Of a stretch of 40,522 bases of DNA, positions 1 through 40,156 are shown piece after piece; the first letter of the stretch is position 1, and the number at the start of each line of letters is the position of its first letter. A program made the translations under genes and the position numbers. The notes under the pieces were generated by a model. That model did not search any database. It saw only the letters and a program-made list of their open reading frames with translations, and had not been told where the DNA came from. Source of the stretch: a virus; the IMG/VR virus record IMGVR_UViG_3300048091_000434, positions 1-40,522 of that record; one strand, written 5' to 3'.

Positions 1-276
1 TTAACAGGCGAGTTTTAAGCCGTTGAGTTGATTGCACTCTTTAACAGCAGCGGCGCGCTGTTGGTCGAGGTAGGTGGCCAGGTCAGTGATGTGGATCCCT
101 TTCGCCGATTTCTGGCTCGGCTCCAGTCGGGTGATCGGGATTTTGATCTGACCGCTCATCACTTTTCGCTGGAACATATCTGGCGTCAGGTGAGTGAAGT
201 AGTCCCTGCAGACTTGCTCCAGGGGGATGATGGCCTGGCCGTTGTATTGGGCCATCAGGATAAATGCAGTGTTCAT
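1..276 (-). CDS. PrtN-family (pyocin activator-like) regulator, copy 1
   Basis: A 91-residue protein matching the PrtN family, small DNA-binding activators known from pyocin control in P. aeruginosa and common at the integrase end of Pseudomonas prophages. The family signature is visible: IPLEQVCRDYF near the N terminus, then SGQIKIPITRLE, then a basic segment ending in HITDLATYLDQQR. I chose the ATG at 276 because GGAGG lies a few bases upstream; a longer upstream reading has no ribosome site. The start overlaps the stop of the PP-loop gene (ATGA-type), so it is the last gene of the leftward operon inside the window. A second homologue lies at 2729-3046. Whether it acts on phage promoters, on excision or on host genes cannot be told from the sequence. 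Confidence 0.85.
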   Translation of the reverse strand: MNTAFILMAQYNGQAIIPLEQVCRDYFTHLTPDMFQRKVMSGQIKIPITRLEPSQKSAKGIHITDLATYLDQQRAAAVKECNQLNGLKLAC

Positions 277-1265
277 GCGGCCTCCTGGACTACTGCAAAT
301 TGATCTTGATGTGCATCGCAGAGTCCGTAGGCGCTGGAACAGGCCGTCGCATCTGTTGCGATCATCAAGTCGTACTGGATGCCGCCTCGGGCTGTCTTCG
401 ACCACTCGACGGCTTGGCGGATGCTGGCGATTTCCATCACCTCGACTGCGCTCATGTTGGCGATTGATCCTTTTGGGTGTTTTGCGTTGGAGCCAGCAAA
501 GAACGTGGCTGCCCCGCGCTTGCTGGCCTGTTGAGTGATTCGCTCCCAGCGATCAATGCGGTCGATTACTTCAGGGAATCGCAAGGCTATTTCGCGCAGT
601 TCGTCCTTACGGCAGTTGATGCAGGGCATACAGCCCACACGGCCCATGCCCTGGGAGTACAGCGGGTTTGGCTTGATGCCCATGTATCGATGAGCCTCGA
701 AGACCGCTGGAATGTCCCACTTCAAGATCGGCCGATAGTTGAATAGGCCGCCACCTACTTCATCGCACTCGGGCAAGTAACGCCGGTTGAGCGATTCGTC
801 GGCACGCACACCCTGCCAACTCATGATCATGTCGCCGCTGCCCAACATCGGCATCACAAGCTGCTCAAGCATTGGGTCCCGTTTCAGCTCCATGGTGCAG
901 AATTGCGCCTTGCGGCTTGGGAACCGACCTTTCCATATACAGAGGTCGAGGAACGGATTGCCGGTTGGTTGCAGCACATTCAGAGCGGCCAGCACCACTG
1001 ACTCGTCGACACCTTGCTCGCGCCATTTGGTTTCGATGAACCGCCGCTTACCTTCGATGCGCTGGGTGAAGTCGGCGCGCACACGGGTGATCTTGGTGTG
1101 GGTGGCTTGCTCCAGGTAGTCGAGATATTCGTAAGTCTGTTCGTGCTCGTTACCTGTATCGGCAAAGACTGCTTGCAGGTTCGGTACTTCCAGGGCAATG
1201 GCGACCAGTAGGGTGGCGGTGCTGTCCTTCCCGCCACTGACGCTCACGACGTTATGTACGTTCAT
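273..1265 (-). CDS. Phage PAPS reductase-like PP-loop protein
   Basis: A 330-residue protein of the phosphoadenosine-phosphosulfate reductase / N-type ATP pyrophosphatase superfamily. The PP-loop SGGKDST sits at residues 10-16. Cys123 and a Cys212/Cys215/Cys218 cluster (GCMPCINC) could hold an iron-sulfur cluster, as in DndC-like and other phage PP-loop proteins. The family adenylates or sulfurates substrates using ATP; the phage substrate is unknown, with DNA or tRNA thiolation, sulfate use or an antidefence role all possible. It overlaps the neighbouring genes at both ends (14 nt upstream, 4 nt downstream), so it is translationally coupled within the early leftward operon. The PP-loop is intact, which argues that it is active. 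Confidence 0.85.
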   Translation of the reverse strand: MNVHNVVSVSGGKDSTATLLVAIALEVPNLQAVFADTGNEHEQTYEYLDYLEQATHTKITRVRADFTQRIEGKRRFIETKWREQGVDESVVLAALNVLQPTGNPFLDLCIWKGRFPSRKAQFCTMELKRDPMLEQLVMPMLGSGDMIMSWQGVRADESLNRRYLPECDEVGGGLFNYRPILKWDIPAVFEAHRYMGIKPNPLYSQGMGRVGCMPCINCRKDELREIALRFPEVIDRIDRWERITQQASKRGAATFFAGSNAKHPKGSIANMSAVEVMEIASIRQAVEWSKTARGGIQYDLMIATDATACSSAYGLCDAHQDQFAVVQEAA

Positions 1266-20620: not shown

Positions 20621-20808
20621 GTCGATGTGGGTCACCTCTTACAGGTTGTTGGATAGCATTAGGCGTCGAATTCTAACAATATCCTTTTTTACTGGCGCTG
20701 GGCCATTATTGGGCTAGCCTTGATCCAAGGGACTATGTCTAGCGATTTCAAATCTCCCTTAATTCAGCCTAATTGATGTCGGTCAACATTTGCTGTGAGG
20801 GCTTTCGT

Positions 20809-22071
20809 ATGTCGGTAATCATAAAGGGATGTATGTTTTTTGCTGTTCTTCTAGGGTTTGTAAATGTATCGGGATGCTCTGGGATAGGGCCGCAAATTGA
20901 TAATAGGTATACTGTATTTACTCCGGAGTTTGCAGATAATCGAGTTTATTATCTGGGGGCGAAAGGTGCCGGGCAAAACCAACCTCTAGAATCAATAGGA
21001 ACTAGCTCGCCAAGGGCCGGTAATACTATTGCTCGGAACTCTCCAATTTCTATAGTTCTGAGGTCTGTTGAGATTCCAGCAAAGTATGAAAGTGATGGAA
21101 AGGGAGGAGTGAAAAAGGGGGTGGTTACTGAGGATGCGGATTATGCGGTTATTCTCGATGTTGGTACAAAAGCCGATGGGTCATCCAGTTCAATGGTTGT
21201 CTGGTATCAGCGTGGTGTCCAGCCTGACCAGTCGCTAAATTTCTCCAATTTGCTTGTTTATTACGAGCCTAGATGGGATGAAAGAGTCGCACCGTTTTTT
21301 CGTGTGCGAGTAATGAACGTGACAAAGGAAAAAAATATTGAGACCCGAAAGGCGTTAGAACGAGCACATAATATCGCTGGCTCTGTTGGTGTGATGGCGA
21401 AAAATCCAATTGTTACACCCCTGATCGGAATTTCATTTACTGCTGCTGAACTGGTATTTGCTAACAAGGAAAATAAAATGCTTTTGGACTATTCAGTTCA
21501 ATTGTATTCATCTTCTTCAGCCGCGCAAGCCGGTATGGAACTAGGAACTCTAAAACGTGGTTCGTATGTAGTTGTAGGACGGCCTCCGGCAGAGACTCGT
21601 GATTTTTGGAAGGGGCCATTTTCTTACGAGCCAGACAGTCGAGCAATTTTCAGGGGGACGAATGTGATTAATGTCCCAACTGCTTCGCTAACTGTAGGCA
21701 CTTTCGAGAGTATCGTGCCAACCATCGTTATGGAACGTTCAACAGCTCTCACTGCATTGTTGAGCTCCAATGGCTCTGGGTCAACTGTTGAAGAAATAGA
21801 AGATGTTAATAATCGACTTTCCGCGAGTATTGAGGCATTTGCTGCAACGGAAAAAATTCGGAGATATAGAAATCACCAGGATGTTGAAGCTATTTTAGTA
21901 AAAATGGATATGGATCCTGTTTTTCAAGGGCGATTAGGATCGGAAGATGTCTTTTTTGTATTGCGCGCAGCAAGCGAATGTTTTGGTGTTAAGCCTTTTG
22001 TTTCAGTTAAAGAGGCGATTGATTATAGGACTGCGCATGCGAATGAGAGTTGCAAGGGGGAAGCGTCATGA
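20809..22071 (+). CDS. AT-rich moron lipoprotein 1 (unknown, 420 aa)
   Basis: A 420-residue lipoprotein of no recognised family. The start at 20809 has GAGGG seven bases upstream; the signal segment MFFAVLLGFVNVSGC ends in a lipobox with Cys23. The mature part is a mixed, beta-rich body with IARNSPISIVLRSVEIP, a middle VGVMAKNPIVTPLIGISFTAAELVF segment that could touch a membrane, and a helical C-terminal end. It is clearly AT-rich compared with the surrounding tail genes. Together with the next lipoprotein it sits between the tail chaperone and tape measure genes. It is not needed for a tail and is probably expressed from the lysogen. Confidence 0.75.
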   Translation: MSVIIKGCMFFAVLLGFVNVSGCSGIGPQIDNRYTVFTPEFADNRVYYLGAKGAGQNQPLESIGTSSPRAGNTIARNSPISIVLRSVEIPAKYESDGKGGVKKGVVTEDADYAVILDVGTKADGSSSSMVVWYQRGVQPDQSLNFSNLLVYYEPRWDERVAPFFRVRVMNVTKEKNIETRKALERAHNIAGSVGVMAKNPIVTPLIGISFTAAELVFANKENKMLLDYSVQLYSSSSAAQAGMELGTLKRGSYVVVGRPPAETRDFWKGPFSYEPDSRAIFRGTNVINVPTASLTVGTFESIVPTIVMERSTALTALLSSNGSGSTVEEIEDVNNRLSASIEAFAATEKIRRYRNHQDVEAILVKMDMDPVFQGRLGSEDVFFVLRAASECFGVKPFVSVKEAIDYRTAHANESCKGEAS

Positions 22072-22559
22072 GGCATGTGGTATTATTATTTATAATATTA
22101 ATTTTGGCTGGTTGTAGTAGTGGTGGAGCGTTGCACACTTATCCATTCTCTACAACGTCTACAGTTCCTCTAAGTCCAGGCATTCCCCGTTATCCGGAGC
22201 TTGGGGATTTTCAGCTTAATGAGGGGACTCCTACAATTGATGCGTTGCTTAAAAGCTTCAGTCATAATGGAACTAAAACTTTCATGGATCGAGGGCTAAG
22301 GCAGGCGTATTTTGAAATTTATCCTGGGCGAGCTTGGTGTGATATTTCTTTTAAGAGTGGGTTGGTGAACTATATGTTCGGTGTTCAGTTTGTTCAGGTG
22401 TCAGGGGGTGGGGTAACTGCTGTGGTACGAAATATGCGTACGGTTCAAGGTTACCCAGTAGATTCTAAAGTGATGGAAGTAACTCCTAATGTGTATGCCG
22501 CTCTGGTAGATGCACAACTTTTCAAGCCAACACTGGCAACCGAGCAAAGTTTAAAGTAG
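22068..22559 (+). CDS. AT-rich moron lipoprotein 2 (unknown, 163 aa)
   Basis: A 163-residue lipoprotein. The signal peptide MRHVVLLFIILILAGC has the lipobox LAGC with Cys16. The mature protein begins with a Ser/Pro-rich linker (FSTTSTVPLSPGIPRYP) followed by a small globular domain with ASP-less, aromatic-rich strands (RAWCDISFKSGLVNYMFGVQF). The ATG overlaps the stop of lipoprotein 1 (ATGA) and AAGGGGG lies upstream, so the two are translated together and probably act together at the outer or inner membrane. A strong terminator follows 40 bases later. No family is recognised. Confidence 0.75.
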   Translation: MRHVVLLFIILILAGCSSGGALHTYPFSTTSTVPLSPGIPRYPELGDFQLNEGTPTIDALLKSFSHNGTKTFMDRGLRQAYFEIYPGRAWCDISFKSGLVNYMFGVQFVQVSGGGVTAVVRNMRTVQGYPVDSKVMEVTPNVYAALVDAQLFKPTLATEQSLK

Positions 22560-34401: not shown

Positions 34402-34418
34402 TAAAGGTCTTGCTATCT

Positions 34419-35213
34419 ATGTCCACACCCATCATTCCTTGGATGGGCGGCAAACGCCGCCTGGCCGACCGCCTCATTCCGCTTTTTCCGCCTCACGAGT
34501 GCTACGTCGAAGTCTTCGCCGGCGGTGCCGCGCTGTACTTCATGCGGCCCCAGGCTGCTCCCGTTGAAGTCCTTAACGACATCAATGGCGACCTGGTGAC
34601 GCTGTACCGCGTCGTGCAGAATCATCTCGAAGAGTTCGTGCGCCAATTCAAATGGGCGCTCAGCTCGCGCCAGGTGTTCGAGTGGCAGAAGATGACCCGC
34701 CCAGAAACCCTCACCGACATCCAGCGCGCCGCCCGATTCTTCTACCTGCAGCACCATGCCTTCGCTGGCAAGGTCACCGGGCAAACCTTCGGGACTGCGA
34801 CCACCGGCCCGGCCATAAACCTGCTGCGGATTGAGGAAAATCTCTCGGCTGCTTGGCAGCGCCTGTCCGGTACCTACGTCGAAAACCTCCCCTGGCTTGA
34901 ATGCGCCGAACGCTACGACCGTGCCCACACCTTCCACTACATGGACCCGCCTTACTGGCAAACCGCCGGCTACGGGATAGACTTTCAGTTCGAGAACTAT
35001 GAACGGATGGCCGACTTTATGCGTCGCTGCAAAGGCAAGGTAATGGTCAGCATCAACGATCACCCGGACATCCGTCGGGTCTTTAAAGGCTTTCATTTTG
35101 AGCCCCTGGAAATCCGCTATTGCAATACGAACCAACGGCAGGGGAAGGCCGCGGTGAGCGGCGAATTGATCATAATGAATTGGGAACCGTTAGCGTTGGG
35201 AGGTTTGTTTTGA
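34419..35213 (+). CDS. D12-class DNA adenine N6-methylase (Dam-like)
   Basis: A 264-residue DNA adenine methyltransferase of the D12 (alpha) class. The AdoMet site FAGGAAL is at 34-39 after WMGGKRRLADRL, and the catalytic DPPYW is at 176-180. VMVSINDHPDIRRVF near the end is typical of phage Dam proteins. It has no partner endonuclease beside it, so it is an orphan that likely protects phage DNA or changes transcription. The LexA box just upstream indicates that it is made when the prophage is induced. ATG at 34419 follows AAGG at about ten bases. Confidence 0.92.
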   Translation: MSTPIIPWMGGKRRLADRLIPLFPPHECYVEVFAGGAALYFMRPQAAPVEVLNDINGDLVTLYRVVQNHLEEFVRQFKWALSSRQVFEWQKMTRPETLTDIQRAARFFYLQHHAFAGKVTGQTFGTATTGPAINLLRIEENLSAAWQRLSGTYVENLPWLECAERYDRAHTFHYMDPPYWQTAGYGIDFQFENYERMADFMRRCKGKVMVSINDHPDIRRVFKGFHFEPLEIRYCNTNQRQGKAAVSGELIIMNWEPLALGGLF

Positions 35214-35382: not shown

Positions 35383-36228
35383 ATGGATTTAAATGAGCTT
35401 TTTTCATCTGTAGAGTTCACGATGCTTGCAAAGTTTAAAGAGTCCGGCTTTATCAAGCATAGTGGTGATAAGGGTGAGAATAGAGAGGAGTTTATTATTG
35501 AGTTTCTGAGGCAGCACTTACCTAAGCGATATGGTGTCACTAAGGGTGAGGTGATTACTAAGGGTGGGCAACGCTCTCATGCAATTGATATTATTATATA
35601 TGATGCTGTTAATTGTCCTGTTTTGTATGCAGGAAAAACATCTATACTGCCAGTTGAAGGTGTGTATGGAATAATAGAGGTCAAGTCATCTCTTTCTAAA
35701 GCTGAATTTGATGACGCAGCAAAAAAAATCACATCCTTTAAAAAGCTCGCCCCTAGAGATCTGGGTATAATTTCAACTCGGGAATATGCCACAATGCATC
35801 GTGGCTCCAGGCCCTTTGGTATCGTATTCGGCTTCCAGTTATCTGGGAATTCTCTACAGTCATTAAGTGAGAATTGGATGGCTCACAGTAATACCGTTTA
35901 TGAGGTGAATTATTTCTGTAATCTGGTGTGCGTGCTCGGAGAGGGGGTCTTGCGGTACGAAAGTGTGAATTTATCGAAGGGAGAAAAACACCTCCTTATA
36001 GATACCGATGAGTTTGTAAATCTGGTCGAGACATCGGAAAAGATGCGTGATTACTCAGGGTCGGATGATGATGTGAGACTTAGAATTGTTAAGGAAGATG
36101 CTCAGGATCGGGCATTCGGTCGGTTTTTTACGTATTTATTGATTATGCTGGCAAAGATGAAATTAAATGTGCCTGACTTGGGTCAATACATAGATCCGAG
36201 TCTGCCAATCACTGCTTTTAGGGAGTAA
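35383..36228 (+). CDS. DUF6602-like PD-(D/E)XK nuclease-fold protein
   Basis: A 281-residue protein resembling DUF6602: SGDKGENREEFIIEFLRQHL, then LPKRYGVTKGEVI, then the core HAIDIIIYDA (Asp69) and VEGVYGIIEVKSSL (Glu99, Lys101), a PD-(D/E)XK arrangement as in restriction endonucleases. The C-terminal part is helical. AGGAAGG lies nine bases upstream of the ATG at 35383; the frame extends further left without a site. It is AT-rich, unlike the methylase before it, and forms an operon with the SEC-C gene 2 nt downstream. A role as nuclease in defence is an inference from fold and context. Confidence 0.75.
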   Translation: MDLNELFSSVEFTMLAKFKESGFIKHSGDKGENREEFIIEFLRQHLPKRYGVTKGEVITKGGQRSHAIDIIIYDAVNCPVLYAGKTSILPVEGVYGIIEVKSSLSKAEFDDAAKKITSFKKLAPRDLGIISTREYATMHRGSRPFGIVFGFQLSGNSLQSLSENWMAHSNTVYEVNYFCNLVCVLGEGVLRYESVNLSKGEKHLLIDTDEFVNLVETSEKMRDYSGSDDDVRLRIVKEDAQDRAFGRFFTYLLIMLAKMKLNVPDLGQYIDPSLPITAFRE

Positions 36229-36230
36229 TT

Positions 36231-36554
36231 ATGGCAGAAATAGATCCTGAAGAACCGTGCCCCTGTGATTCGGGTTTGCTTTTTAAGGAGTGTCACGGTC
36301 CAAAAGTCAAAAAAAAGAAGATGCCAGAAATTACGCGGCGAATGGCACTGAAAGTAATACCGGAGCCTGCCCCCAATACGCGCACTGTAGTTAACTGTGT
36401 CGGGGAGTCGACAGTTGTGTTTATTAGTCATGAGGAGGGTCTTGCTTTAGTGTGCGGCAACTGTGCCTCGGATTTGGTTGTAGGTATGAGGAGGGCTGCT
36501 ATTAGGGATGTTGTTCTTTGTTGCAATAAATGTGGTGCATTTAATGAAACTTAG
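36231..36554 (+). CDS. SEC-C motif / zinc-ribbon small protein
   Basis: A 107-residue protein with two metal sites. The N-terminal SEC-C motif is PCPCDSGLLFKECHG (Cys10, Cys12, Cys21, His22), followed by a Lys-rich PKVKKKKMP linker. The C terminus has Cys75-x2-Cys78 and Cys97/98-x2-Cys101 (VCGNC, CCNKCG), a zinc-ribbon pattern. GGGAG is five bases before the ATG and only 2 nt separate it from the DUF6602 gene, so it is co-translated. It may serve as a nucleic-acid or protein-binding partner of the nuclease-like protein. Confidence 0.7.
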   Translation: MAEIDPEEPCPCDSGLLFKECHGPKVKKKKMPEITRRMALKVIPEPAPNTRTVVNCVGESTVVFISHEEGLALVCGNCASDLVVGMRRAAIRDVVLCCNKCGAFNET

Positions 36555-36637
36555 TTCTGCTTCGGTATAACTAGCAGTTCAACACAATCGGGGTGTGATT
36601 GATGTTGTATGGAATCCATATTGGTCATGTCCTCAAT

Positions 36638-36654
36638 GGAGCCTAGCTCCTTTT
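36638..36654 (+). terminator. Weak terminator between SEC-C and protease genes
   Basis: GGAGC, loop CTA, GCTCC, followed by TTTT. The short stem gives only partial stopping. It suggests that the protease gene could be transcribed both by read-through and from its own start. Confidence 0.35.
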
Positions 36655-36676
36655 CTACGTCTCTGGATTGGTGTTA

Positions 36677-37390
36677 ATGCATATCATCACGGCTAACTCG
36701 AGGATGTCCTTGTTCCTGGAAATGAGGTTTTCAGGTCAAGTGCTGGCAAAGGGTACGGGGTTTATAGTGGAGATGGGCGGTAGCTACTTCTTGATCACAA
36801 ACCTCCATAACGTCACCGGAAGAGATCCGGTCACGGGAAAATGCCTTGATGATAAAACGGCAGCTGTGCCGAATGAGGTGGCCGTCTATGTAACAAGCCA
36901 TTCACCAACTGTTGAAGGGTGCCGCCCGGTTGTAATTCCTCTTCTCGATGGTGATGACAGCCCTCAGTGGGTAGAACATCCCGAACTCAAGGGTCGCGCA
37001 GATATGGTAGCGATCCGTATCGTGCATGAGGATGACATGATCTTGTTGCCCTATGCCCTCACGGAGACTCCTAATTTTGAGCGCAAGCCGTCCATGCAGG
37101 TCAGTGTTATCGGGTTCCCATTTGGGTTGAGCGGTACGGGTAAGGTCGCAATATGGGTTAACGGTACGATCGCTTCGGAGCCTTGCATGGATTTTGATGG
37201 TTTACCTCTTTTCCTGATCGATGCTCGTACCCGGAGTGGGCAATCAGGATCTCCAGTCATCGCGCACTCCACTCTTCTGGGTATCTATAGTGGAAGAATC
37301 AACGCCGAGTCTGATCTGGGTAAGGTTTGGAAAACTTCCGCCATTCTAGAGCTGGTCCGGCATGCTGCCGCTCTATCGGTCAATGCTTAG
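36677..37390 (+). CDS. Trypsin-like serine protease (S1/HtrA fold)
   Basis: A 237-residue protease. The triad is readable: His44 in ITNLHNVTG, Asp109 in GRADMVAIRI, Ser190 in RSGQSGSPV (GxSGxP). GTGFIVEMGGSYFLITN is the usual start of the fold. No signal peptide or PDZ domain is visible, so it would act in the cytoplasm as a single domain. The ATG at 36677 was chosen, with GTG at 36671 and TTG at 36668 as alternatives; no good ribosome site is seen. Serine proteases with nuclease partners occur in defence islands. Whether this one belongs to the same system as the two genes before it is unproved. Confidence 0.8.
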   Translation: MHIITANSRMSLFLEMRFSGQVLAKGTGFIVEMGGSYFLITNLHNVTGRDPVTGKCLDDKTAAVPNEVAVYVTSHSPTVEGCRPVVIPLLDGDDSPQWVEHPELKGRADMVAIRIVHEDDMILLPYALTETPNFERKPSMQVSVIGFPFGLSGTGKVAIWVNGTIASEPCMDFDGLPLFLIDARTRSGQSGSPVIAHSTLLGIYSGRINAESDLGKVWKTSAILELVRHAAALSVNA

Positions 37391-38996: not shown

Positions 38997-39050
38997 TGGA
39001 GCGGGTGAAGGGAATCGAACCCTCGTTATCAGCTTGAGAAGCTGACGCTC
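38997..39050 (-). tRNA. Partial tRNA (3' half), tRNA-Gly(CCC)-like, probable att remnant
   Basis: On the minus strand: an anticodon arm TCAGC-TTCTCAA-GCTGA, a variable region, a T-arm GAGGG-TTCGATT-CCCTT and an acceptor strand CACCCGC with TCCA. The 3' half is almost that of tRNA-Gly(CCC) as I know it from E. coli glyU, but the anticodon position reads CTC instead of CCC. No D-arm or 5' acceptor strand is found to the right, so it cannot be a working tRNA. It most likely is the duplicated 3' end left by integration at the gene. Confidence 0.7.
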
Positions 39051-39121
39051 AGGCTCGTACAGGGTGGAGTGTAAAGATCCTTTGACGCCTGCAATCTCAA
39101 AACTCGACGGAGATAAGTGCG

Positions 39122-40156
39122 TTATGCAGGGCCTTCAAGTTCGCTCATTATCAATGTACAAAAATCGTCTTGAATGATGTTCATTATTTCTCGAATCGCA
39201 GGCATTATAAAATCGCCATTTTGTCGGCCCTGCATTATTCCAAGCCAATATGTTGGGTGATACCGCGACAAAGTTCCTAAGAAAAAGGCCAAGAGAAAAT
39301 AACGGCCTATTTTAGAAATGTGAATTTCATTTTGAAATGGTGAAATTAGTGCTGAGTACATCTCAGATGTGTTCTCTAGCTGCGGTAAGTCTGCCAGGCA
39401 GGATGAGCCCGAGGGATGGTTGAGTCGGTAGCGGGAGTGGCCCAGCGTAGGCACGAAATTGTGCTGATATAATTGTGTGATCTCCAATCTGGCCGGAATC
39501 GTTAGCTGTTGCCTAAGAATGTCATCGTCGGGAAGGCCATGGGCTCCAGGGAATATGTCAACGTCCACAAGTTCTGGCCCGATCGCGAATATAAATGAAA
39601 GATAGTTGGAGGCGCTTTTGTTAAAGGTTTTTTCAAATATCTCTCTAAGTTTTGGTTCTCTTGAAAGCACGTCTTCAAATGTGATCTGGGTATTGGCGAG
39701 TGATTGCGTAGGGTAGCACCTTGGAAGTATTAGCTTGTTTGGATATGGTCCTGTGAATATCCAAGGCATTTCAAAGTTTTTCGTGTGTTCCATTAATGAC
39801 AAAAATGTGCCATTAGTTACTACAACCGATAACTCCCCCGCTTGTTTTTGCGCCAGTTTTTCACCCCATCCGTTGGTCGATAAGCCGTGCGCTTGCGGTA
39901 GGGATGATTCTCGGAAGGTTGATGATAGCAAGAGAATTAATCCGCGGCTGAGGGCTAGTACCCCATAGTATTGCAGTACTGGCCGGACCAATAATCCAGC
40001 ATTTGTAGCAGCGCTGAAGTACTCGCGACCTTGAGCTATTGCTGAAACTATTTCTTGTGCTTTGCCGGAGTTCAGCTCTCTACCGTGTCTCCTGTTGAAA
40101 AGGTTCTTCACCAAATCCGTGCTTTCATACAGTGATAATCGTGCCCAGCTGTCCAT
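39122..40156 (-). CDS. YaaC-like protein (AT-rich, probably acquired)
   Basis: A 344-residue protein resembling the YaaC family: NAGLLVRPVLQYYGVLALSR, a hydrophobic-aromatic repeat region, and later YFLLAFFLGTLSRYHPTYWL. No catalytic residues are known for the family. The gene is markedly AT-rich compared with its neighbours and stands beside a tRNA fragment and a dead integrase, so it was probably acquired. The ATG at 40156 has a purine-rich GGAGGAA region just before it. YaaC relatives have unknown roles, and defence is a possibility only. Confidence 0.65.
   Translation of the reverse strand: MDSWARLSLYESTDLVKNLFNRRHGRELNSGKAQEIVSAIAQGREYFSAATNAGLLVRPVLQYYGVLALSRGLILLLSSTFRESSLPQAHGLSTNGWGEKLAQKQAGELSVVVTNGTFLSLMEHTKNFEMPWIFTGPYPNKLILPRCYPTQSLANTQITFEDVLSREPKLREIFEKTFNKSASNYLSFIFAIGPELVDVDIFPGAHGLPDDDILRQQLTIPARLEITQLYQHNFVPTLGHSRYRLNHPSGSSCLADLPQLENTSEMYSALISPFQNEIHISKIGRYFLLAFFLGTLSRYHPTYWLGIMQGRQNGDFIMPAIREIMNIIQDDFCTLIMSELEGPA

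Follow-up and report, generated by a model that had tools for sequence, protein, structure and literature searches.

A NucC-superfamily nuclease paired with a SEC-C/zinc-ribbon protein in mobile-element cargo, a candidate defence module

The AT-rich cargo block of the prophage

The window, by which we mean the whole stretch of 40,522 nucleotides analysed (IMG/VR record IMGVR_UViG_3300048091_000434), carries prophage genes that include a gpA-type terminase, a lambda-type portal, an S24 repressor, a CII-like regulator and a cell-wall hydrolase. A Dam-type methylase gene is followed by a block of three AT-rich genes that lie on one strand. The three open reading frames are real, and Pfam assigns them to DUF6602, SEC-C and Trypsin_2. 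At 41-51% G+C they stand out from the surrounding phage (about 58-60%), as the first-pass annotation of this DNA had observed. The features of the region are as follows.

34410-35213: Dam-type methylase gene, directly upstream of gene 1
35383-36228 (+): gene 1, NucC-superfamily (DUF6602) PD-(D/E)XK nuclease, 281 aa
36231-36554 (+): gene 2, protein with a SEC-C motif and a zinc ribbon, 107 aa, starting 2 bp past the gene 1 stop
36638-36650 (+): terminator-like hairpin followed by TTTT, a weak consensus match between gene 2 and the protease gene
36668-37390 (+): trypsin-like protease, 240 aa, with an alternative ATG start at 36677

The best relatives of the methylase in the phage collection come from Pseudomonas phages (78% DNA identity). 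This similarity, the sole basis for a host assignment, suggests that the prophage resides in Pseudomonas. The window encodes no tyrosine integrase, and exact direct repeats of 16 bp or longer that span more than 15 kb are absent, so the att site that had been placed at this end of the prophage is unproven. A stretch on the minus strand at 39000-39060 resembles the 3' half of a tRNA, ends in CCCGCTCCA and is a possible attachment-site remnant; ARAGORN reports no tRNA there. Adjoining this fragment, and beyond the phage genes, is a YaaC-like gene (39122-40156, minus strand, Pfam 5e-31, 45% G+C).

The late-gene region holds a second AT-rich insert (20773-22559, plus strand, 44% G+C against about 60% around it) with two overlapping open reading frames of 432 and 169 aa. 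Neither has a match in Pfam, PADLOC or PHROGs, and they are possibly another cargo pair. The phage also encodes a PAPS-reductase-family protein (273-1265, minus strand, Pfam 6e-22). PADLOC matches it to the phosphorothioation component SspD (1e-24), although it is probably merely a member of the phage PAPS-reductase family.

The protease matches Pfam Trypsin_2 with an E-value of 2e-8. Its His47 and Asp112 are conserved, as is the serine of GQSG, which is Ser193 counted from the TTG start and Ser190 counted from the ATG at 36677. The intact His-Asp-Ser protease described earlier is thus present, its Ser190 being numbered from that ATG.

A NucC-superfamily nuclease and its SEC-C neighbour

NucC is the cA3-activated suicide DNase of CBASS and type III CRISPR systems, a homotrimer that turns into a hexamer when active. 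Gene 1 belongs to the same superfamily by both profiles and fold. It matches Pfam DUF6602 above the cut-off (E 2e-31), the PADLOC NucC model (2e-26) and the NucC effector model (4e-32). A single-sequence phmmer search of the PDB aligns it with solved NucC structures at E-values of 1e-10 to 1e-16, namely those of Serratia, Vibrio metoecus and E. coli and the 6q1h chain, whose title names P. aeruginosa ATCC27853 NucC. DUF6602 is the NucC superfamily, a point that the first-pass annotation had missed.

The AlphaFold2 model of gene 1, whose input included one CBASS-NucC-like row, has a pLDDT of 65 overall and of about 87 for residues 41-122, and much of the C-terminal third falls below 50. Foldseek returned 14 significant PDB matches for this model, all of them NucC, with E-values down to 7e-14 and TM scores of 0.49-0.58 by query length. 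The PD-(D/E)XK core recognised earlier is borne out, since D69, E99 and K101 align with the triad D73/E104/K106 of a CBASS NucC, and the triad is kept in all four SEC-C-linked nuclease copies. Mutation of D83 and E114 abolishes interference by Serratia NucC (PMC13060164); allowing for a 6-residue offset in the PDB chain numbering, these residues probably correspond to D69 and E99 of gene 1.

The module shares the PD-(D/E)XK domain, the catalytic D/E/K residues and the core fold with CBASS NucC (E. coli MS115-1, P. aeruginosa ATCC 27853), but it lacks the cyclase, Cap6 and Cap7 partners and the cA3-pocket signature, and gene 1 is about 40 residues longer and has a SEC-C partner. Its best PDB sequence matches (E 1e-16) are the type III CRISPR NucC proteins of Serratia and Vibrio metoecus, and the Vibrio protein is likewise prophage-borne. 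PADLOC found no cas effector-complex genes, and no other cas genes, among the 14 window proteins scanned.

Gene 2 encodes an N-terminal SEC-C motif (CPCDSGLLFKECH, Pfam SEC-C E 1.5e-6) and a C-terminal CxxC...CxxC zinc ribbon that reaches Pfam Zn_ribbon_10 below threshold, in agreement with the earlier description of a protein with two zinc motifs. Its counterparts in the PDB are SecA SEC-C peptides. The CPCxSG...C[HC] zinc-binding motif is common to gene 2, the SecA C-terminus and YchJ, but gene 2 combines it, within 107 aa, with a second zinc ribbon at the C-terminus. The structure model of gene 2 is unreliable (pLDDT 47) and gives no structural support for a contact with the gene 1 product.

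Recurrence of the pair in other mobile elements

Genes 1 and 2 occur together in three unrelated mobile settings, of which the window prophage is one, and the 2-bp gap between them is identical in every other intact pair locus. One copy adjoins the integrase of a P2-like enterobacterial prophage (L002; E. coli G47-1) and is 79% identical to the window copy in the nuclease and 58% in the SEC-C protein. Another is carried by the complete 15.4-kb Acinetobacter baumannii plasmid pA2503 (58% and 51%, respectively). On pA2503, 18 bp separate the pair from an upstream Abi gene with a PADLOC match to PD-T4-5 (3e-16; L003, 2214-3131). The same order of PD-T4-5-like gene and pair is found on L010, and in Acinetobacter the genes may form a three-gene operon.

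A scan of genome contigs with gene 2 as a single protein gave zero matches. The corresponding search with a gene 1 alignment gave one MAG contig with the pair, which is near-identical to the pA2503 module and probably mis-binned. At the search sensitivity applied, the complete pair turned up in one of 5,426 E. coli genomes. One further genome of this set, LR-71-1, carries gene 2 beside a nuclease truncated by IS1 near ssrA/ypjA (L008, 6000-6460). The insertion sequence removed all of the nuclease gene except its 3' end and left the SEC-C gene intact, which shows only that gene 2 is tolerated without gene 1.

Among all loci fetched, the SEC-C signature lies solely beside this nuclease clade and near no other DUF6602 locus, and no nuclease-only copy of the SEC-C-linked clade was seen. 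Between the window and P2-like copies, synonymous sites are saturated (pS 0.87) while dN is 0.16 for the nuclease and 0.33 for the SEC-C gene; both genes have therefore been under purifying selection for a long time. Because the adjacent pair recurs in distant mobile elements, the proposal that nuclease and SEC-C genes are one system gains support. We regard the pair as a travelling two-gene unit, with few independent contexts (n = 3).

Other members of the nuclease family have different neighbours. In the plasmid collection, some lie beside annotated CBASS cyclases (Polaromonas, Citrobacter, where the gene is annotated nucC, and Acinetobacter), and others adjoin genes annotated merely as nucleotidyltransferases. 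Many DUF6602 proteins have neither an adjacent cyclase nor a SEC-C partner, and the partner may therefore be dispensable. DUF6602 proteins from two Klebsiella phage-plasmids (L015, L023), Acetobacter (L004), Vibrio (L016) and Xanthomonas (L006) have no annotated cyclase nearby and are marked either by long, dissimilar C-terminal extensions (359-417 aa) or by a neighbour with an HD domain; these are possible further rewirings of the NucC core. A search of open-licence papers, with subscription journals mostly outside its reach, returned no published description of the nuclease/SEC-C pair and no mention of DUF6602 or of NucC together with SEC-C.

Proposed control of the nuclease

The SMODS cyclase (PF18144) is absent from the window, from the complete pA2503 and from the P2-like record. 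The cA3-pocket residues, which we take to be R53, Y81, H136, Y141 and T226 following Lau et al. 2020, are found exactly at those positions in the Citrobacter NucC. Gene 1 of the window keeps only R53 among the five, as R49, and this position is a lysine in the Acinetobacter copy. In an alignment whose C-terminal part is uncertain, T226 is replaced by K or R and Y81 by N, and H136, Y141 and the gate positions are lost. In an alignment-free comparison, each of the five cyclase-linked NucC proteins carried the motif GTV[PA]xxD, and each of the 12 others lacked it. The cyclase-linked (n = 5) and SEC-C-linked proteins also fall on separate branches, each supported at 100/99 relative to the other group, a figure that covers this split and not deeper branching. 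Membership of the pair in CBASS was rejected on the missing cyclase in the three records and the missing pocket and motif.

With the pocket and the GTV[PA]xxD motif missing, no SMODS cyclase in the three records and separate branches in the tree, the simplest model is that the SEC-C protein acts as the gate. We give a probability of about 0.5 to genes 1 and 2 being an abortive-infection nuclease of the NucC family whose control lies with the SEC-C/zinc-ribbon partner and not with cA3. A fuller version, in which cyclic-nucleotide control of the suicide nuclease has been swapped for the SEC-C/zinc-ribbon protein, with sensing and killing divided between two co-encoded proteins and no second messenger, is more tentative and falls somewhat short of an even chance. 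Given the family of the nuclease and the genomic contexts of the pair, a role in defence is plausible.

We infer that the two genes are made from one transcript and that their products interact physically, with the SEC-C/zinc-ribbon protein taking the place of the cyclase as controlling partner of a NucC-family DNase. Control could run in either direction. The gene 2 protein may restrain the nuclease until a phage event frees it, or it may sense a phage event and switch the nuclease on. The active nuclease would then cut DNA, and phage production would stop.

The ligand could also come in trans from a cyclase encoded elsewhere in the host; CBASS or type III CRISPR of the host would then drive the NucC effector through a cyclic oligonucleotide, and gene 2 would be an accessory. 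The biochemically described NucC proteins are opened or activated by cA3 (PMC10419184, PMC8682760), and the retained R49 would fit such a scheme; the remaining pocket and gate substitutions, the lysine of the Acinetobacter copy, the missing motif and the lack of a cyclase in the three elements speak against it, and we consider it improbable. A toxin-antitoxin or addiction module that serves mainly the stability of the mobile element, with the nuclease as toxin and the SEC-C protein as antitoxin, is a better candidate, though still unlikely. Two small adjoining genes on prophages and a plasmid suit this idea, as do the lack of nuclease-only copies and the LR-71-1 locus, where IS1 took out the nuclease except for its 3' end and spared gene 2, in line with gene 2 being harmless by itself. 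However, a toxin-first gene order is less usual, the toxicity of the nuclease alone is putative, and a single insertion event is weak evidence. Many toxin-antitoxin modules serve in defence, and to that extent this idea overlaps with control by the SEC-C partner.

A nuclease that the zinc-ribbon protein directs to DNA and that has a restriction-like or phage-utility function (DNA processing, superinfection exclusion) without killing the cell has slightly poorer prospects than a ligand supplied in trans. PD-(D/E)XK nucleases are frequent in restriction, the fold has weak similarity to BbvCI, and the Dam-type methylase gene lies directly upstream, but the strong fold matches are all NucC. Related phages that lack the pair commonly carry the methylase, which does not stand beside the pair at other loci; as a restriction-modification partner it is unsupported. 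Least probable is the three-gene system of the first-pass annotation, with the trypsin-like protease as activator of the nuclease or as effector. The three genes are neighbours on one strand within one AT-rich block, and nuclease-protease pairs are known in Hachiman, AVAST, Lamassu and DRT (PMC12799240). The SEC-C half of that reading is supported by the recurrence of SEC-C genes beside the nuclease, but the protease is missing from all other pair loci. Conversely, genes 1 and 2 occur in none of the five protease-relative loci read, which lie on Klebsiella, Photobacterium, Planococcus and Rhizobium plasmids and in Shigella phage SfII. A 113-bp gap with the weak terminator-like hairpin separates gene 2 from the protease gene, although sites of this kind in the region outnumber those in shuffled sequence by a factor of only about 2.8. 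The published pairs of Hachiman, AVAST, Lamassu and DRT and canu also place a nuclease gene close to a trypsin-like protease gene, but they combine an MBL-fold nuclease with a protease fused to the core defence enzyme (PMC12799240). Neither feature applies here, where the nuclease is a NucC-type PD-(D/E)XK enzyme and the protease a separate 240-aa protein, and a role for the protease in the system is therefore unsupported. We rejected it as a third component from its pattern of co-occurrence and from this comparison, and judge it to be a separate, independent cargo gene.

NucC has so far been described as an effector that ends a cyclic-oligoadenylate pathway. If the nuclease is indeed controlled by its SEC-C/zinc-ribbon partner, a NucC effector can be rewired to another kind of sensor. 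The pair would then be a compact 1.2-kb mobile unit and would assign a function to some members of the large and unnamed DUF6602 family.
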